Virus record (IMG/VR): IMGVR_UViG_3300043640_000053
Coordinates: 1-40,630 of that record
Origin: a virus
DNA: 40,630 nucleotides
Reading direction: 5' to 3' (one strand)
Shown here: one piece after another, positions 3,627 to 23,186 of the stretch
Layout: each line of letters starts with the position of its first letter
Numbering within the stretch: the first letter of the stretch is position 1
Program-made: the position numbers and the translations under genes
The notes under the pieces: model-generated
Database searches by the model: none
The model's input: only the letters and a program-made list of their open reading frames with translations
What the model was told of the DNA's origin: nothing

Positions 3627-3946
3627 CAAAGAGATCCGAGTATAATAAAAAGTGGCGTGACGCAAATCCTATGAAGTATTGCTATATAACGCTCCGGGAT
3701 AATTCTAAACGTCGCGGCAAAGTGTTTACGATTTCGTTTGAGTATTTCAAGCGGTTTTGTTACCGTACAAAGTACATTCAGAATAAGGGTCGGCACAGGG
3801 AAAATTATAGCATTGACAGGATCAATAACGAATTAGGATACATCCCAGGAAATATTAAATGCGTTACAGTCGCCTTGAATTCAGCAAAAGGAACTAAGGT
3901 AGTCTCGTTCGATTATTACCGGGAATCTAAATTTAAAGTTATATGA
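3623..3946 (+). CDS. Small HNH-fold-like protein
   Basis: The 107-residue basic protein carries YSIDRINNELGYIPGNI at residues 62-78 followed by KCVT. This matches the beta-beta-alpha core of small phage HNH-like proteins, whose usual form is (H/S)IDRIDNxxGYxxGN(I/C)xxV. D65, R66 and N78 are in place. The usual catalytic His just before the core is not obvious, so it may be a DNA-binding relic, a member of a divergent HNH subfamily, or a nicking enzyme. It sits in an ATGA-coupled chain. Being so small and lacking a second domain, it could be a free-standing homing-type endonuclease, although it is well integrated in the operon. Confidence 0.6.
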   Translation: MTKRSEYNKKWRDANPMKYCYITLRDNSKRRGKVFTISFEYFKRFCYRTKYIQNKGRHRENYSIDRINNELGYIPGNIKCVTVALNSAKGTKVVSFDYYRESKFKVI

Positions 3947-4236
3947 GTCCTACCAGGCAGCGCATAGACGAGATATTCCGGACCGCCTGCGAAATGTTCG
4001 GCGTTGACATGCGCCTGCTAGTAACAAAAAAGAATCCAGGTAGGGCCGCATATAATGCCCGGATCATTTGCATAAAGTCTTTGCGCGACTCTACGAACCT
4101 GGTGTTATCCGATATAGGCAACCTGTTCGATACTGATCATACCTGTATTTGTTATGCACTTAACCGGTACGAAGTTTATTATTCTAACGATCAGTTTTTC
4201 CGGATTGACGCAGATTTTTTTAAAACTCAAATATGA
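3943..4236 (+). CDS. Stand-alone DnaA domain IV-like DNA-binding protein
   Basis: In this 97-residue protein, residues about 50-90 match the C-terminal helix-turn-helix domain of DnaA: DIGNLFDTDHTCICYALNR (57-75) corresponds to the DnaA signature with DHSTV.HA. followed by a basic helix. In DnaA this segment reads the DnaA box. The AAA+ domain is absent, so the protein cannot act as a complete initiator. It may bind host or phage DnaA boxes, interfere with host initiation, or act as a transcription factor. It is ATGA-coupled on both sides. It is also one of the few candidate DNA-binding regulators for the repeated operators described in this window. Domain match is moderately firm; role is inferred. 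Confidence 0.65.
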   Translation: MSPTRQRIDEIFRTACEMFGVDMRLLVTKKNPGRAAYNARIICIKSLRDSTNLVLSDIGNLFDTDHTCICYALNRYEVYYSNDQFFRIDADFFKTQI

Positions 4237-4981: not shown

Positions 4982-6515
4982 ACAACCTTTCCCATATCAG
5001 CATAAGCAAATAGACGGCATATCCGAAGCGTTCGGGGCTGGTCGCAAGTGCGTGGTTGCTCAACTTCCAACAGGAGGCGGCAAAACGGTAGAGTTTGCGT
5101 GTATGTGTAACCGTTACATAACATCTCAGCCAAAGAATGTACTAATTCTTGTACACAGGGCTGAATTAATGCAGCAAGCGTACAAAACACTGTATGAGTG
5201 GTTCGGCATAATCGCGGAGCGTGTCGGAGCCAACAATAAGAAGCCGGGTAATGCGCGGGTGTATATCGCGATGGTCGAAACGGCAAATAACAGGCTTAAA
5301 AAATCACCAAACTATTTTCCAAATATCGGCCTGGTAATAATTGACGAATGTCATTTAGGAAATTTTACCAAGATCATGCCGTGTTATGTTGAATCGTTTA
5401 TCTGCGGTTACACGGCCACGGCAAAGACTGCCAGTAAAAAACACCCGCTAAAGGAGTTTTACGAAACGATTATCGTAGGCCCGCAGATCGAAGAACTTAT
5501 AAAACTTGGCAACCTCACGCCAAACAAAACATATCGCGCTATCGGCGTGGACCGTGACGATCTTGCGGTCCGAGCAGGAGAATTTGACACGGAACAAATG
5601 TCTGCGCTCTATTCAAAGACCAAGCACGTCAAGAACACTGTTGAAGGGTATGAAAAACATTGCAAAGGAACAAAAACCCTCGTCTTTAACTGTTCTGTCG
5701 AGCATTCAAAACTTGTCGACGCGGCATTTCGCGAAGCCGGATACAACTCAAGGCATATCGACGGCAACGAAAAGCCTGAAAAGCGCGCCGCGATACTTGA
5801 ATGGTTTAAGAACACGCCAGACGCAATCCTGAATAATATAGGCATTCTTACAACCGGCTTCGACGAGCCATCCGTACTATCTGTGATCGTAAACAAGGCT
5901 ACTCTTAGCTTGCCCCTGTGGCTTCAAATGTGCGGGCGCGGTAGCCGGACATTCCCTGGTAAACTGTTCTTCACCATTGTAGATATGGGCGGAAACACTA
6001 AGGCGCATCTTGATTGGTGCGACTATAGAGATTGGGAATGGGAATTCAATAACCCTGGTAAACCTAAATTAACGGGCGGCGGAATCGGTGCAGTAACGGA
6101 GTGCGTCGAATGCGGCGCATACATACCGGCCAGCACGCGCGTGTGCAAATTCTGCGACGCAGATCAGCCAGCGCCGATACAGACCTATGATTCAAAGATG
6201 GTAGAGTTTGAGCTTATCACTAAAGCCATCGACGTACCGGCTGTGATCGTCGCCACTCAGGACCATAACCCGTACTACGCGCTGCACCAGATCAAAGAAA
6301 ATATCGTATCGGGCGCAAGGTCCAAACTGGTAAATATCGACGACGCGGCAGCGTATCGGTTACTCGAATCTTATCAAGAGAAAGTCGCAGAGTGGTGCAA
6401 GGTGACGGGTAAAAATTATAACCAGTGGCACAAATCAACTACCGGAACCTGGTTTTTAGAAGAACTCGACAAGGTTTTTGGGTGGAAGCCGCCCGCGCTA
6501 AGTATTGCTATATGA
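4974..6515 (+). CDS. Superfamily 2 DEAD/DEAH-box helicase with zinc finger
   Basis: The 513-residue helicase shows the ordered SF2 motifs: I PTGGGKT (32-38), Ia LVHRAELM (59-66), II DECH (124-127), III TAT (147-149), V TTGFDEP (293-299) and VI QxxGRxxR (318-325). A four-Cys zinc ribbon (C377, C380, C391, C394) follows and may contact DNA. About 100 helical residues end the chain. SF2 enzymes of this form in phages unwind or remodel DNA in replication or recombination, comparable to UvsW-like or DnaB-replacing helicases. It overlaps the upstream gene by 8 bases and the downstream small gene by ATGA. Helicase family is certain; substrate and polarity are unknown. Confidence 0.9.
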   Translation: MLKQPFPYQHKQIDGISEAFGAGRKCVVAQLPTGGGKTVEFACMCNRYITSQPKNVLILVHRAELMQQAYKTLYEWFGIIAERVGANNKKPGNARVYIAMVETANNRLKKSPNYFPNIGLVIIDECHLGNFTKIMPCYVESFICGYTATAKTASKKHPLKEFYETIIVGPQIEELIKLGNLTPNKTYRAIGVDRDDLAVRAGEFDTEQMSALYSKTKHVKNTVEGYEKHCKGTKTLVFNCSVEHSKLVDAAFREAGYNSRHIDGNEKPEKRAAILEWFKNTPDAILNNIGILTTGFDEPSVLSVIVNKATLSLPLWLQMCGRGSRTFPGKLFFTIVDMGGNTKAHLDWCDYRDWEWEFNNPGKPKLTGGGIGAVTECVECGAYIPASTRVCKFCDADQPAPIQTYDSKMVEFELITKAIDVPAVIVATQDHNPYYALHQIKENIVSGARSKLVNIDDAAAYRLLESYQEKVAEWCKVTGKNYNQWHKSTTGTWFLEELDKVFGWKPPALSIAI

Positions 6516-6682
6516 AAAAATTAATAAGGCAGAAAATCAATATGTTAATCTGCGAGAAGTTTAATACAATTATCGAGATTTCGTTTTCCCCTGGTATCGA
6601 AAAAACGATATACGGGCAAGCTTTGGCCGCTAGAATTGCCTTCATAGACCTATATGTCTGCATTCTTTCCGGCTTTGTTTAA
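6512..6682 (+). CDS. Small hydrophobic protein, unknown
   Basis: The 56-residue product starts at an ATG overlapping the helicase stop (ATGA), the same coupling used throughout this operon, which is the main reason to accept it. The N-terminus is basic (MKKLIRQK) and the C-terminal half is hydrophobic (about residues 38-56). It is the last gene before the promoter at 6703-6734. No family recognised. Confidence 0.45.
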   Translation: MKKLIRQKINMLICEKFNTIIEISFSPGIEKTIYGQALAARIAFIDLYVCILSGFV

Positions 6683-6702
6683 CCCTTTTTTTGCCTTTTA
6701 AG

Positions 6703-6734
6703 TTCGTAACTTACAATAATTGTTTGTATCTTTA
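6703..6734 (+). promoter_or_regulatory. Promoter with overlapping inverted-repeat operator (site A)
   Basis: A -33-like TTCG (6703-6706) is followed after 20 nt by TATCTTTA (6727-6734), close to the Bacteroidetes -7 element TAnnTTTG. The imperfect inverted repeat TACAAT-AATTG-TTTGTA (6712-6728) covers the spacer and the start of the -7 box, as in the other six sites of this window. The methyltransferase start is 11 nt downstream. Confidence 0.65.
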
Positions 6735-6744
6735 TCGCTTCCCC

Positions 6745-7599
6745 ATGACGCACGCTTCATTATTTTCAGGTATCGGTGGTTTTGATTTAGCCGCTAAGTG
6801 GATGGGGTGGAAAAATATCTTCCATTGCGAAATAGAAAAGTTCGGACAGAAAATTTTAAAACAACATTTTCCGGAATCCTTTTTATATGAAGATATTACC
6901 AAATCAGACTTTAACGACCGTAAAGGAACTGTCGATGTACTTACAGGAGGTTTTCCCTGCCAACCATTCAGCGTTTCCGGAAAGCAAAAAGGAACAGCAG
7001 ACAGTAGGCATCTTTGGCCGGAAATGCTGCGGGCCGTTAGAGAAATCGCCCCTACTTACGTCGTGGGCGAAAACGTTTACGGTCTTGTTAGTTGGTCGGG
7101 GGGATTGGTTTTCGACCAGGTGCAAGTTGATTTGGAAAATGAAGGTTACCAAGTCGTCCCGTTTCTTATTCCAGCTTGCGGCGTCGGCGCTCCACACAGA
7201 AGATACAGAATTTGGTTTGTTGCCTACTCCGGACGCCGGGTTAGCGACCGGTGGAAAGATAAACAAAGCAACGACGTCCATCAAGGGAAAAACTCCGGAC
7301 GGATACAAGAGGAAAATATCCATAATAGACTACATAAGCCGGGGTTTAATCCCGACACCAACGACGAGGGATTGGAAATCGTGCAACGCGTCCCAGGAGA
7401 CGATGAACAGGAATGCCCGACCGCTGAACGAAACGGTTACAGGTGGGAAGACTGGCCAGCTCAACCCCCGCTTTGTGGAAGAAATGATGGGTTACCCGAT
7501 AGGGTGGACAGAATTAAAGCATTAGGAAACGCTATCGTTCCACAGGTTGCGTACCAAATTTTCAAAGCGATTCAATTACATGGCCTCACCGATTATTAG
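6745..7599 (+). CDS. dcm: DNA (cytosine-5-)-methyltransferase
   Basis: The 284-residue product transfers a methyl group from SAM to C5 of cytosine in DNA. Motifs are in family order: I LFSGIGGFD (about 6-14, SAM binding), IV GGFPCQPFS with catalytic Cys72, VI GEN (108-110), VIII GAPHRRYRIW (about 148-157), then a variable target-recognition region, and motif X ALGNAIVPQ (about 259-267). The start at 6745 places the Met just before motif I, as is normal, directly behind promoter A. No restriction endonuclease is adjacent, so this is an orphan enzyme likely to protect phage DNA. A second conserved reading frame (6887-7525) lies inside it. It overlaps the primase-helicase start by 20 bases. Confidence 0.93.
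   Translation: MTHASLFSGIGGFDLAAKWMGWKNIFHCEIEKFGQKILKQHFPESFLYEDITKSDFNDRKGTVDVLTGGFPCQPFSVSGKQKGTADSRHLWPEMLRAVREIAPTYVVGENVYGLVSWSGGLVFDQVQVDLENEGYQVVPFLIPACGVGAPHRRYRIWFVAYSGRRVSDRWKDKQSNDVHQGKNSGRIQEENIHNRLHKPGFNPDTNDEGLEIVQRVPGDDEQECPTAERNGYRWEDWPAQPPLCGRNDGLPDRVDRIKALGNAIVPQVAYQIFKAIQLHGLTDY
6887..7525 (+). CDS. Overprinted protein inside the methyltransferase gene (LLPTP family)
   Basis: A 212-codon frame runs in another phase within the methyltransferase gene. Its sequence looks like a real, recurring phage protein: CKLIWKMK, FLFQLAASALHTEDTEFG, then LLPTPDA and LIPTPTTRDWKS, and near the end LNPRFVEEMMGYPIGWTEL. I recall this LPTP...NPRFVEWMMGFPxGWTDL pattern from many phage proteins annotated as methyltransferase-associated or hypothetical, often overlapping a dcm gene. 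Both frames therefore appear to be under protein-level selection. The ATG at 6887 is the longest in-frame start; the real one may differ. Function is unknown; a link to the methyltransferase is inferred from the invariant overlap. Confidence 0.55.
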   Translation: MKILPNQTLTTVKELSMYLQEVFPANHSAFPESKKEQQTVGIFGRKCCGPLEKSPLLTSWAKTFTVLLVGRGDWFSTRCKLIWKMKVTKSSRFLFQLAASALHTEDTEFGLLPTPDAGLATGGKINKATTSIKGKTPDGYKRKISIIDYISRGLIPTPTTRDWKSCNASQETMNRNARPLNETVTGGKTGQLNPRFVEEMMGYPIGWTELKH

Positions 7600-9748
7600 T
7601 TTATTCCCGCATATCCGTGATGCAAACAACGGCACGGATATGCCGTTCGACGTGTTCTTGCATAATATAAAATCCGGCGCCTGGTCCGATCATGTGTTGG
7701 ATGTATATAAATACCGCAGCGATCCCCTCGCGATGCGCAAGGCAAAAGAGTCTGTGCCATACGTAACGATCTCCGGAAAGTTTAAGACGCGTAAAAATGA
7801 AGGCCTGGAACATCATTCCGGTTTTCTTGCTATTGATATCGACGAAGTGGATCCACGCGAAACCAAGGAGATAATCTGCTGCGATAAACATGTGTACGCC
7901 GCGTTCGCTTCGATATCGGGCGGCGGGTTGTGTGTGATTTTTAAAATCAACCCGGCAAAGCACCTTGAGTCATTCGAAGGCTTGCAGCAGTATTTATACG
8001 ACAGTTATAAGATTATTGTTGACCCATCTTGCAAGGATGTTTCCAGGCCGCGTTATGTCAGCTATGATGCAGAGATGTATCTGAACGAACGCGCGGAAAA
8101 ATTTGTCAGTTACGTAAAGAAAGATAAGGCGCTTAATCCGACCAAAGTCCCGAATGTAGTTTTTGTCGAAGACGATTTTAATATGGTCCTAGGCGAAATC
8201 GCAGAGCGCGGCATTGATATAACCGGCTCTTATCAAACGTGGCTCCGCATTGGGTTTTCTATAGCCGACAAGTTCGGAGAACAAGGCCGCGAAGCTTACC
8301 ACGCAATAAGCCGATACTCGACAACATATCTGCCAAAGACCTGCGACCGGCAATACGACAACTGTTTGAAGTCGAAAAACTCCGGCGTAAACATCGCTAC
8401 TTTTTATTTTATCGCGAAGGCTGCGGGCCTGTGTATTATCAGTGAACGGACACGTAAAGTTTCCGCCATCGCTGACGCTGCACGCCGGGCGCATTCAGAT
8501 AAAAAAGCTGCTGTTAAAGAAGCTACCGAACAGGGTTTCGAAAACGCTACAGACATAATCAACCAGGTTTTTGACAACTCGATAGACATACCGGACGCGT
8601 CAGAAATTGAATCGCACGAGTTTTGGCTGAAAGAACACTACAGCCTGCGCAGGAACGAACTGACTAGGTACATCGAGTCCAGCGGTGAACCGTTACAGAA
8701 AAAAGATTTCAATACCATTTGGGTTGCAGCCCGAAAAGTCTTCGACAAAATCAGTTACCAGGATCTTGAACGCCTGATTGATTCCGACAGCACCCCGACG
8801 TACAACCCGCTGAAGGATTTTATTCACGAACAAAGTCACCGAACGCCGACAGGCTGCATTGAGCAGGTTTTTCGCAGCATTGAAACCGATACCGGAGACG
8901 ATGACTTCGCAGTAACCTTTGGTACGAAATGGTTCGTAGGAATGATCGCATCCATTTACGGCAAACATTCCCCGCTTATGCTGGTGTTCACCGGCCCGCA
9001 GAATTCCGGCAAGACTGAGTTTTGGCGGCGCCTGTTGCCGGTCCCTCTGCTGCATTATTATGCAGAATCCAAGCTCGATCAGGATAAGGACAGCGAGATC
9101 CTTATGACGCAGAAGCTCATTATCATGAATGATGAAATGGGCGGAGCCACGGCCAAAGATGAAAAAAGGATCAAGGAACTTACCAGCAAGCAGGTTTTTA
9201 GCCTCAGGGAACCATATGGGCGCGGTAATGTGGACCTGGTTCGGTTGGCGATGCTTGGCGCTACAGCTAATTTAACGGCCATTCTAGGCGATAACACCGG
9301 CAACAGGCGTATTATCCCGATAAACATGCTATCGTATGATTTTGACGCTTATAACCGCGTAGACAAGACGGATATGTTTATGGAGGCCTACCATTTATAC
9401 AAGGCTGGTTTTCCGTGGCATCTGTCCAAACAGGAGATAGCCATGCTGAATGGATCTACATCGGAATTTGATAAGGTGAATATTGAGCGTGAGCTTCTTA
9501 CCCTGTATTACGAACTGCCAGCGGAAGGGGCCGGGACCTGGTTAACCGCCACTGAGATCAAAACCCGGCTTATGAGGGATAACAAACACGTCCCGAACGC
9601 CACAAAGTTAGGACAGGAACTTAAGAACCTTGGTTTTGTCCGTGGTGGCTTCAGGCGTAATGGACAGCCTCAATATGGGTATAAGGTGCAGGAAACGAAT
9701 ACGCTATTCGGTACTGATCTTCCGGTAAAACAACCCCTTCCCTTCTAA
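7580..9748 (+). CDS. Primase-helicase, BT4734-like N-terminus with VirE-type helicase
   Basis: The 722-residue protein begins with a BT4734/VirE-N-like primase domain containing GFLAIDIDEVD (81-91) and the ISGGGLCVIFKI segment. A PriCT-like linker follows (TWLRIGFSIADKFG to the Cys/Lys-rich turn). The C-terminal VirE-type superfamily 3-like helicase has Walker A GPQNSGKT (472-479), Walker B KLIIMNDE (512-519) and a winged-helix tail. Such fusions prime and unwind DNA at a phage or mobile-element origin. The repeat cluster just downstream (9751-10019) supports an initiation role. The chosen start (MASPIISL) overlaps the methyltransferase by 20 bases. The C-terminus is KQPLPF, one of the four Pro-Phe tips. 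Confidence 0.85.
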   Translation: MASPIISLFPHIRDANNGTDMPFDVFLHNIKSGAWSDHVLDVYKYRSDPLAMRKAKESVPYVTISGKFKTRKNEGLEHHSGFLAIDIDEVDPRETKEIICCDKHVYAAFASISGGGLCVIFKINPAKHLESFEGLQQYLYDSYKIIVDPSCKDVSRPRYVSYDAEMYLNERAEKFVSYVKKDKALNPTKVPNVVFVEDDFNMVLGEIAERGIDITGSYQTWLRIGFSIADKFGEQGREAYHAISRYSTTYLPKTCDRQYDNCLKSKNSGVNIATFYFIAKAAGLCIISERTRKVSAIADAARRAHSDKKAAVKEATEQGFENATDIINQVFDNSIDIPDASEIESHEFWLKEHYSLRRNELTRYIESSGEPLQKKDFNTIWVAARKVFDKISYQDLERLIDSDSTPTYNPLKDFIHEQSHRTPTGCIEQVFRSIETDTGDDDFAVTFGTKWFVGMIASIYGKHSPLMLVFTGPQNSGKTEFWRRLLPVPLLHYYAESKLDQDKDSEILMTQKLIIMNDEMGGATAKDEKRIKELTSKQVFSLREPYGRGNVDLVRLAMLGATANLTAILGDNTGNRRIIPINMLSYDFDAYNRVDKTDMFMEAYHLYKAGFPWHLSKQEIAMLNGSTSEFDKVNIERELLTLYYELPAEGAGTWLTATEIKTRLMRDNKHVPNATKLGQELKNLGFVRGGFRRNGQPQYGYKVQETNTLFGTDLPVKQPLPF

Positions 9749-9750
9749 GT

Positions 9751-10019
9751 GTTGTAAGCGTTGTAAGCTGTAGTAAGCATAATTATCGGACTGCTTACTA
9801 CCAGGGATATTTGGTTTTCAATCTGTTATATCTCTTTTTATTAATGTAGTAAGCGTAGTAAGCATATATCACACACACGTAACGAGGCAATGTTTTACAT
9901 GACGTGAAAATATTTTATTCATTTCCTATAAACTTCCGGAAATGCCTTACTACAGCTTACTACACTATCTGTAAAATCCACATAACGCATTGATTTAGTA
10001 TTATTTAAGTGTAGTAAGC
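9751..10019 (+). other. Iteron-like repeat cluster, candidate replication origin
   Basis: The 310-bp non-coding gap holds nine copies of a 9-bp element, consensus G(T/A)(A/T)GTAAGC, mostly GTAGTAAGC. Direct copies: 9751-9759, 9760-9768, 9770-9778, 9846-9854, 9855-9863, 10011-10019. Inverted copies: 9793-9801, 9945-9953 (one mismatch), 9955-9963. Copies are spaced 9-10 bp within groups, nearly one helical turn, as in plasmid and phage iterons bound by an initiator. The stretches between groups (about 9802-9845, 9864-9944 and 9964-10010) are A+T-rich and could act as unwinding regions. The cluster lies immediately behind the primase-helicase gene. Confidence 0.7.
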
Positions 10020-10058: not shown

Positions 10059-10439
10059 ATGGGAATTGACTCAATATCGGAATTACAGCTTCAGGCGCAG
10101 TGTTACCAGTGGGCTTACGGCACTTACCCTCAGATCCGAGGCCTGTTGTGGCACGTTCCAAACGAAACCAAGCCGTTCCCTGGTGAACCGAAGCACGACT
10201 ATTATATCCGGCTGAACAAGATGAAGGCTGCGGGCCTGGTTAAGGGCGTCTCGGACCTGCACTTCTATTGGCGCAACCGGCTATACTGTTTTGAGCTGAA
10301 GGTTGATTACAACAAAGAGTCTACTGAGCAAATCGCGTTCGGCGCCCGTATCCAAATGGAGGGCGGGTACTACGACAGCATCCGTACACTGGAACAATTC
10401 AAAGCCATCTTCACCAAAATCATAACCGCACACCCATGA
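10059..10439 (+). CDS. VRR-NUC domain nuclease
   Basis: The 126-residue product is a compact VRR-NUC protein of the PD-(D/E)XK superfamily. E8 in ISELQLQ opens the domain; GVSDLHF (63-69) supplies the catalytic Asp; FELK (78-81) supplies Glu and Lys; Q-x-x-FGARIQMEGG (91-103) closes it. Stand-alone phage VRR-NUC enzymes are thought to cut branched DNA such as Holliday junctions, which would resolve replication or recombination intermediates before packaging. It starts 40 bp downstream of the last iteron and is coupled by ATGA to the next small gene. Fold and active site are clear. Confidence 0.87.
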   Translation: MGIDSISELQLQAQCYQWAYGTYPQIRGLLWHVPNETKPFPGEPKHDYYIRLNKMKAAGLVKGVSDLHFYWRNRLYCFELKVDYNKESTEQIAFGARIQMEGGYYDSIRTLEQFKAIFTKIITAHP

Positions 10440-22022: not shown

Positions 22023-23186
22023 ATGAATTCCGGCGCACAGTTTAAGTATGTCGTCGACCCGACGTCTGACGAACCTATTATGCTTATCAATAAGCATATT
22101 GGATACAACGAAACGGACGGGCAGGGAATAGACGGGGGCCAATTTCAATCCGAATTGCTCCGCCTTGATTCTATGGGTAAAAAAAGAATTCAGGTTTGGA
22201 TTAATTCGGTCGGCGGTGTTGTCTTTGATGGCTTTGCTATCTATCACGCGATCACCAGGTCAAAAACAAAAGTTGATACCTACAATGTGGGGTTAGCTGC
22301 GTCAATCGCCGGTGTGATATTCCAGGCGGGCCGGAAACGGATCATGGCCGATTATAGCGTACTCATGTATCACAACCCGTACATACCGGGTAGCGAAGAT
22401 GTGAAAAATGATATGCTGGATAAGTTTTCAGAAGCGTGCAATATTATGACGTCTCGATCCGGAATGAGTAAGGCAGACGTAGAGGACATGATGAATAAGG
22501 AAACATTCCTTACCGCATCTGAAGCGATACAAAAAGGCCTTTGCGACGAGATAGAACAAAGTTCAGATTTTAATAAAAAGCGGTTACCCGCTACCGTTAC
22601 CATTAACAATTATAAGCAATTCCAGGCTATAGCGGCCAGTTTGCAAAAAACACACAAACATATTTCAATGTTAAAAGTTACTAACGCGCTGAAACTTACA
22701 GAAGGCTCCGAAGAGTCCGTAATTGCTTCAGCCATCGTCAGCATTCAGGACAGCTTAAGCGCTGCTCAGGTTCAGGCAAAAGCCGACAAGGCTATGATTG
22801 ACAAAATGAAAAACGATCTCGACGAAGCCGCCGACAAGTTTAAAAAAATGGAGGACGCTTTCAAAGCTGCTAAGGCTGACCTTGACACCGCGTCTGATGC
22901 TGCCAACACGCTGAAGGCAACAAACATGGTTACCGAAATCGCTAAGATCGGTAAGATTAAAAACGACGCCCCGACTATCGCTAAATGGGTAGCCCGTGCA
23001 AAGGTTGATTTCGATGGTATCAAGGCTGACCTAGAAGCGCTCCCGCTGAACGCAACTGCTGCCAAACTTGTAGCCGACGTTATTACCGACCCGGCCGCAG
23101 CAGTGACCGCCGCCATAGCCGTATCCCCGCTGCTTAATGCGCAGATGCGTATGATCGAAATCGCAAACAGAACTGCGAAGAAATAA
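22023..23186 (+). CDS. Prohead protease (ClpP-like, S14) fused to scaffold
   Basis: In the 387-residue product the first 185 residues form a ClpP-type serine protease: INSVGG (60-65), nucleophile S94 in GLAASIAG, and H117 in LMYHNPY. From about residue 210 the chain is Ala/Lys/Asp-rich and helical, with heptads (DKMKNDLDEAADKFKKMEDA), as in the internal scaffold fused to capsid proteases. The protease would process scaffold and itself during prohead maturation. The major capsid gene follows 36 bp downstream, which is the standard arrangement. Confidence 0.88.
   Translation: MNSGAQFKYVVDPTSDEPIMLINKHIGYNETDGQGIDGGQFQSELLRLDSMGKKRIQVWINSVGGVVFDGFAIYHAITRSKTKVDTYNVGLAASIAGVIFQAGRKRIMADYSVLMYHNPYIPGSEDVKNDMLDKFSEACNIMTSRSGMSKADVEDMMNKETFLTASEAIQKGLCDEIEQSSDFNKKRLPATVTINNYKQFQAIAASLQKTHKHISMLKVTNALKLTEGSEESVIASAIVSIQDSLSAAQVQAKADKAMIDKMKNDLDEAADKFKKMEDAFKAAKADLDTASDAANTLKATNMVTEIAKIGKIKNDAPTIAKWVARAKVDFDGIKADLEALPLNATAAKLVADVITDPAAAVTAAIAVSPLLNAQMRMIEIANRTAKK

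Follow-up and report, generated by a model that had tools for sequence, protein, structure and literature searches.

A probable self-recognized replication origin in the iteron array behind a phage primase-helicase gene

The region between positions 9749 and 10058 of the phage DNA analyzed here is very probably a replication origin that is recognized by the phage's own primase-helicase, as judged from comparison with related viruses. The analyzed DNA (hereafter, the window) is a whole IMG/VR record of 40,630 bases and possibly a fragment; its completeness is uncertain because no repeat joins the two ends of the record. Terminase, portal, sheath and tape-measure genes in the window indicate a contractile-tailed phage. 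The record starts within a pentapeptide-repeat gene, with near-perfect 15-nt repeats at positions 1–150.

The candidate origin occupies the 310 nt between the stop codon of the primase-helicase gene, which ends at 9748, and the ATG of the next gene at 10059. A preliminary description of this DNA had reported nine similar 9-mers in this gap, six direct and three inverted, with 9–10 nt spacing within groups, and this was confirmed: eight are exact copies of GTWGTAAGC and one is GTAGTAAGG. On the plus strand, two copies of GTTGTAAGC (9751–9759 and 9760–9768; +3 and +12 from the stop codon) are followed by GTAGTAAGC at 9770–9778 (+22), 9846–9854 (+98), 9855–9863 (+107) and 10011–10019 (+263). The inverted copies, on the minus strand, are GTAGTAAGC at 9793–9801 (+45) and 9955–9963 (+207), and GTAGTAAGG at 9945–9953 (+197). 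All eight GTWGTAAGC copies in the window fall within 9751–10019, whereas 0.45 would be expected by chance over the whole 40.6 kb, and none of 100 shuffles reached eight or more copies. A scan of the whole window found no exact copy outside this gap and thus no second, distant cluster. The A+T-rich stretches that had been noted between the repeat groups, in a gap without a gene, were also found: the A+T content is 67% in the gap as a whole, 75% in 9802–9845 and 74% in 9964–10010, compared with 54% in the window. A proposed unwinding element (9864–9944) is located between the convergent iteron pairs; it contains A+T-rich runs (67% A+T over 9864–9945) and, at 9870–9878, the (CA)n run of the window, CACACACAC. 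No Rfam family matched in the gap or elsewhere in the window, and a search for terminators found none. The GC-skew minimum that had been suggested as a check was not observed at the site, which showed no clear minimum or sign change and only a shallow dip at 9.5–11.5 kb.

The gene preceding the array (7580–9748, plus strand) encodes the proposed initiator, P0001, which combines a BT4734-like N-terminal region, PriCT_2, a VapE-like SF3/D5-type helicase and a C-terminal winged helix; its start is the ATG at 7580, and P0001 as listed begins at 7586. Pfam domains PF08800, PF08707 and PF05272 (the last with an E-value of 1e-30) were detected in the protein, and it matches PHROG_15962, DNA primase (E-value 1e-117). 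An AF2 model of the protein (720 aa) had a pLDDT of 86.5, and the best PDB match of this full model was 7pds, PriRep1 of SaPI5 with DNA (E-value 2e-16). The winged-helix domain, which is the proposed reader of the iterons, comprises approximately residues 641–705 (9506–9700, plus strand); its assignment is based on the AF2 model, fold matches and covariation. In an AF2 model of residues 611–720, helices are followed by wing strands at 685–691 and 694–703, with pLDDT in the domain mostly above 85. The nearest fold neighbors of this C-terminal model are RFX DNA-binding domains (8zjr and 1dp7; Z values of 8.7 and 7.0); it also matches the origin-binding domain of phage P4 (1ka8, Z 5.7, rmsd 3.0 over 75 residues), at a level that common folds reach. 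All of these Z values are middling, and therefore the fold alone proves little.

The gene following the array (10059–10439, plus strand) codes for a probable VRR-NUC-type nuclease (PHROG_824, E-value 6e-23; weak match to PHROG_93, endonuclease), for which Pfam gave no match. Equivalent genes come after the array in many relatives, and VRR-NUC is annotated at the corresponding place in FPSV-S1 and mumin6-1. Elsewhere in the window, positions 3943–4236 encode a protein that contains a DnaA C-terminal helix-turn-helix (PF08299) and little else, with DnaA boxes absent nearby. A C5-cytosine methyltransferase gene (6742–7599) and a 212-aa ORF (6887–7525), both on the plus strand, overlap in different frames. 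The 212-aa ORF matches PHROG_1008, 'DNA methyltransferase' (E-value 1.3e-26), and conserved counterparts occur in Paenibacillus and Lactobacillus phages, which often have two methyltransferase features annotated under a PHROG_1008-like ORF. This overlap is likely a dual-coding region.

To place the array in context, relatives were gathered by three alignment-based scans, which yielded some 220 loci. Alignments were needed, as direct homology searches with the window protein alone gave no confirmed viral contigs; a scan of genome contigs yielded only two relatives. The systematic test set consisted of 171 distinct loci with sufficient downstream sequence, in which 370 nt around the gene end were scored. 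In 143 of the 171 loci, the repeat cluster in these 370 nt was stronger than any elsewhere in the locus, and 136 loci reached an iteron-array score of at least 4, the threshold used, compared with 20 of 6,835 control windows and 6 of 1,710 shuffles. The 35 loci below the threshold are not all without repeats. One locus without an array directly downstream of the gene was that of Cellulophaga phi46:1.

The relatives share a conserved layout, counted from the stop codon: direct copies at +0–25, inverted at +30–45, direct at +70–110, inverted at +180–210, direct at about +250 and inverted at about +275. The array of the window (3+, 12+, 22+, 45-, 98+, 107+, 197-, 207-, 263+) fits this layout. In contrast, the spelling of the repeats is not conserved, and 67 consensus 9-mers were obtained, some of which differ only in register. 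Between the convergent groups, the A+T content in relatives is 70% versus 59% in the gene, and (CA)4 or (TG)4 was present at +100 to +200 in 78 of 136 relatives, compared with 19 of 10,578 control windows. The relatives whose hosts are named are phages of Flavobacteriia (Cellulophaga phi46:1, Nonlabens P12024S, and the Flavobacterium mumin and FPSV phages). In FPSV-S1 and mumin6-1, repeats occupy the corresponding gap before the VRR-NUC gene, with different spellings (GGTTACACA and AGGTAACC, respectively). Thus, the preliminary proposal of a phage origin behind the primase-helicase, which had named a lack of repeats at the same place in relatives as evidence against it, is supported by arrays that keep their place and layout under changing spellings; that these arrays act as origins is what we infer from them.

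The changing spellings allowed us to ask which residues of the protein vary with them. In a sub-clade of 54 distinct members, we examined 394 variable columns of the whole protein after removing relatedness via residues 1–620 (residues 680, 684, 693, 697, 702 and 704 of this first set are in L028 numbering). The left part of the iteron was best tracked by wing residue 702 (partial r 0.80), followed by wing residue 697 (0.51). In clear registers, the pairing of residue 702 with motif bases 4–5 had no exceptions: K with AC in 26 of 26, I with TG in 16 of 16, and L with AT in 10 of 10. Residue 697 paired R with T (18) and G with C (11), and other residues with G; in the residue-motif count, the register of one locus, L050, was shifted. 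Residues 680 and 684 of the recognition helix tracked the right half of the iteron (r 0.993 each), and residues 693 (r 0.816) and 704 (0.51) tracked the base preceding this half. In the C-terminal AlphaFold model of the window protein, the equivalent positions lie in the recognition helix and the wing hairpin. Within recognition helix H3 (residues 672–682; 9599–9631, plus strand), T673 and Q677 align with the right-half trackers of relatives, and in the wing hairpin (residues 685–703; 9638–9694, plus strand), R686, R690, P695 and Y697 align with the left-half and center trackers.

The covariation was also followed on a tree of residues 1–600. Residue 702 changes 20 times on this tree and the motif 20 times, and all 20 changes are joint; the corresponding numbers for residue 680 are 4, 4 and 4 joint. 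Independent pairs agreed in 13 of 13 cases for K and AC (p 0.00024), in 10 of 10 for 697R and T, and in 5 of 5 for residue 693. A separate set of 57 loci, which included the window, gave a weaker signal (r up to 0.29), with 7 of the top 20 columns in the winged helix, which contributes 65 of 636 columns (p 0.002); the remaining 13 top columns were scattered. Top columns 673, 686 and 697 of this set (P0001 numbering) correspond to residues 680, 693 and 704 of the first set. With helicase distance accounted for, motif distance followed the C-terminal domain (partial r 0.37, p 0.001). It did not follow the downstream gene (0.03, p 0.34), although some downstream ORFs in the loci used for this control are spurious.

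Iteron pairs could also be used to find initiators. A 22-nt pair, TTGTTGCAGCTTGTTGCAGCTT, matched 12 contigs of the viral collection, two of which were new to the analysis; in all 12, a primase-helicase ORF ends at the array and carries the expected I702 and R697. Besides the GTAGTAAGC type of the window, further iteron types are named TTGTTGCAGC and TGGACAGC. Contigs with the TTGTTGCAGC pair had their own initiator in 12 of 12 cases, and signs of an initiator were present in all but L247 of the seven contigs with the TGTAAAGGA pair. Satellites that use the origin of the window were not found, since contigs sharing its exact iteron pair had no primase-helicase relative in the sequence examined. 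It should be noted that the residue code comes from relatives that are 36–39% identical to the window protein, and that it does not transfer in register to GTAGTAAGC.

Comparison of close pairs with different origin types suggested how these types change. Such pairs are about 90% identical in the gene, mostly also in the downstream gene, and 54–63% in the origin, and the last part of the gene is less similar than the gene overall. For example, L029 and L079 are 94% identical in the gene, 72% in its last 120 nt, 62% in the origin and 94% downstream. A drop in identity confined to the gene end and the origin points to block exchange. Other pairs look like small in-place changes, such as L031 and L052, with K to L at 702, or L026 and L079, in which the helicase region is identical and the wing is changed. 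The iterons directly adjoin the 3' end of the gene, so a single recombined block can carry domain and iterons along together even if the two never interact, and several of the switches are such block swaps. This linkage makes the covariation weaker evidence of contact, but it does not affect the finding that the signal is concentrated on the DNA-facing elements of the winged helix. Five related phages from one sample (L031, L042, L046, L065 and L149, metagenome 3300037493) had five origin types. However, the idea that phages occurring together in a sample tend to have different origin types was unsupported when all samples were considered (15 pairs, permutation p 0.87).

The array, its position, its fixed layout and the covariation of its spelling with the winged helix are directly readable from these sequences. 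Physical binding, two facing hexamers, melting and the start of replication at this site are what we infer in addition. In the proposed mechanism, each of the nine GTAGTAAGC iterons would be bound by the C-terminal winged helix of the primase-helicase, one half being read by the wing and the other by the recognition helix. The convergent groups (direct at 9846 and 9855, inverted at 9945 and 9955) flank a stretch of about 80 bp that is A+T- and (CA)-rich and would be the site of melting. Helicase assemblies loaded on either side would open this stretch, and primers would be made by the fused primase domain. The tracking of the iteron by wing residues is in line with RFX1, which reads the major groove with its wing (PMC4333399, PMC6137059). 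RFX1 is a eukaryotic transcription factor, however, and the shared fold shows no shared function.

Several other explanations were considered. It seems unlikely that the repeats form an operator array, through which the primase-helicase or another protein regulates its own operon or the downstream nuclease genes, with replication starting elsewhere. Arrays of binding sites do serve as operators, and the covariation proves recognition better than origin function; a weak sigma-70-like match is also present at 9977–10004. However, this match is no better than chance, the gap contains no match to the Bacteroidota-type promoter (TTTG-N17-23-TANNTTTG), and the array is located 3' of the initiator gene rather than at its promoter. 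The conserved A+T/(CA) stretch between convergent groups also argues against an operator, as does the use of exactly this position as an origin by initiators of this fold class (PMC7581432; pRN1, PMC4234260). Operator and origin roles could coexist. A different binder, either the DnaA C-terminal-domain protein (3943–4236) or a host factor, is very improbable. The former (PF08299) is encoded nearby, and phi46:1 has one too, but DnaA boxes (TTWTNCACA) are absent from the gap, and the whole window has a single loose match, at 22400. This agrees with the earlier view that the DnaA-like protein was the less likely binder. The preliminary description had left the choice between the primase-helicase and a host factor; the primase-helicase is strongly favored, since switches in spelling go along with changes in its C-terminal winged helix, whereas nothing favors a host factor and dozens of spellings would not be expected from a shared one.

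We give even less weight to the possibility that the inverted groups form a cruciform or a single-strand stem-loop origin, with the identity of the 9-mer incidental. The pRN1 origin is a stem-loop just downstream of a primase-helicase gene (PMC4234260), and the 310-nt gap as single-stranded DNA folds better than shuffles (z -3.16), but inverted iterons fold trivially. In addition, the direct groups of two or three copies at 9–10 nt are conserved and contribute nothing to a hairpin, and the identity of the bases covaries with protein residues. That the array is a chance occurrence or a simple tandem repeat without function can be practically dismissed: unrelated contigs (e.g., L004 and L007) do carry GTAGTAAGC pairs with no primase-helicase relative in the sequence examined, but eight copies were found against 0.45 expected, in both orientations and with mixed spacing, and arrays occur at the same place in relatives. 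The copy counts in the window and the 171-locus test refute this reading statistically.

The best reading is a SaPI-like, self-recognized phage origin. The Rep protein of SaPIs uses its C-terminal domain to recognize an iteron origin that lies immediately 3' of its own gene, and it apparently does so as two hexamers (PMC7581432). That the system in the window works like SaPI Rep-ori is supported for helicase type, position and architecture: as in SaPI5 Rep/PriRep1 (7pds), an SF3/D5-type helicase is joined to a primase part, and several iterons lie directly 3' of the gene. The A+T-rich stretch separating the iteron groups also fits a SaPI-type origin. Unlike SaPI5, the window belongs to a Bacteroidota-type phage whose protein has a BT4734-type N-terminal domain and about 19% sequence identity to 7pds, and the window and its relatives have a conserved mixed-orientation layout and a (CA)n element. 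The alpha protein of phage P4 likewise contains primase, helicase and a C-terminal winged helix (predicted in our case, with the middling fold match to 1ka8) in one protein. Phage P4, however, needs a distant second cluster (crr), which is absent from the window, where all exact copies lie in one gap. Cch2 of SCCmec, a D5-type helicase, binds direct repeats just downstream of its gene, a putative origin (PMC7581432), but has three iterons, a separate primase subunit and no comparable layout. In the crenarchaeal plasmid pRN1 (ORF904), the origin is directly 3' of the primase-helicase gene (PMC4234260); unlike that of the window, it is a stem-loop, with no iterons reported.

Taken more broadly, phages with VirE-type primase-helicases may well form a large origin family with a fixed layout, rapidly diversifying types, a readable amino-acid-to-base code, and change by both point changes and block recombination. 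The proposed code residues (L028 numbering) are 680 and 684 of the recognition helix and 693, 697, 702 and 704 of the wing. We found no earlier description of such origins in the open-licence literature, whose silence is not proof of novelty; the new elements are the spread of this family among Bacteroidota-type phages, a layout that stays fixed under changing spellings, the (CA)n run and the residue-to-base code. Few phages known solely from metagenomes have an identified origin, and in this case origin, initiator and matching residues can be read from sequence. With a fixed layout and a spelling that varies together with a few amino acids, the pairing is directly testable, and the recognition code can be tested across many natural variants. 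If the family is as described, the origin type could correspond to a replication compatibility group among co-infecting phages. Phages often switch origin specificity and keep the layout, which raises the question of a selective cause, perhaps competition with co-infecting phages, satellites or plasmids.

Two arrays of relatives had an unusual structure. In Flavobacterium phage mumin6-1 (L012, 6092–6995), a nuclease gene (6172–6735) lies inside the iteron array and divides it in two, an arrangement suggestive of the insertion of a homing-type gene into the origin. In L077, repeats of an approximately 86-nt unit lengthen the array between about +205 and +473 after the stop codon, with inverted and direct copies alternating, and the copy number of this array exceeds that of every other locus of its set.
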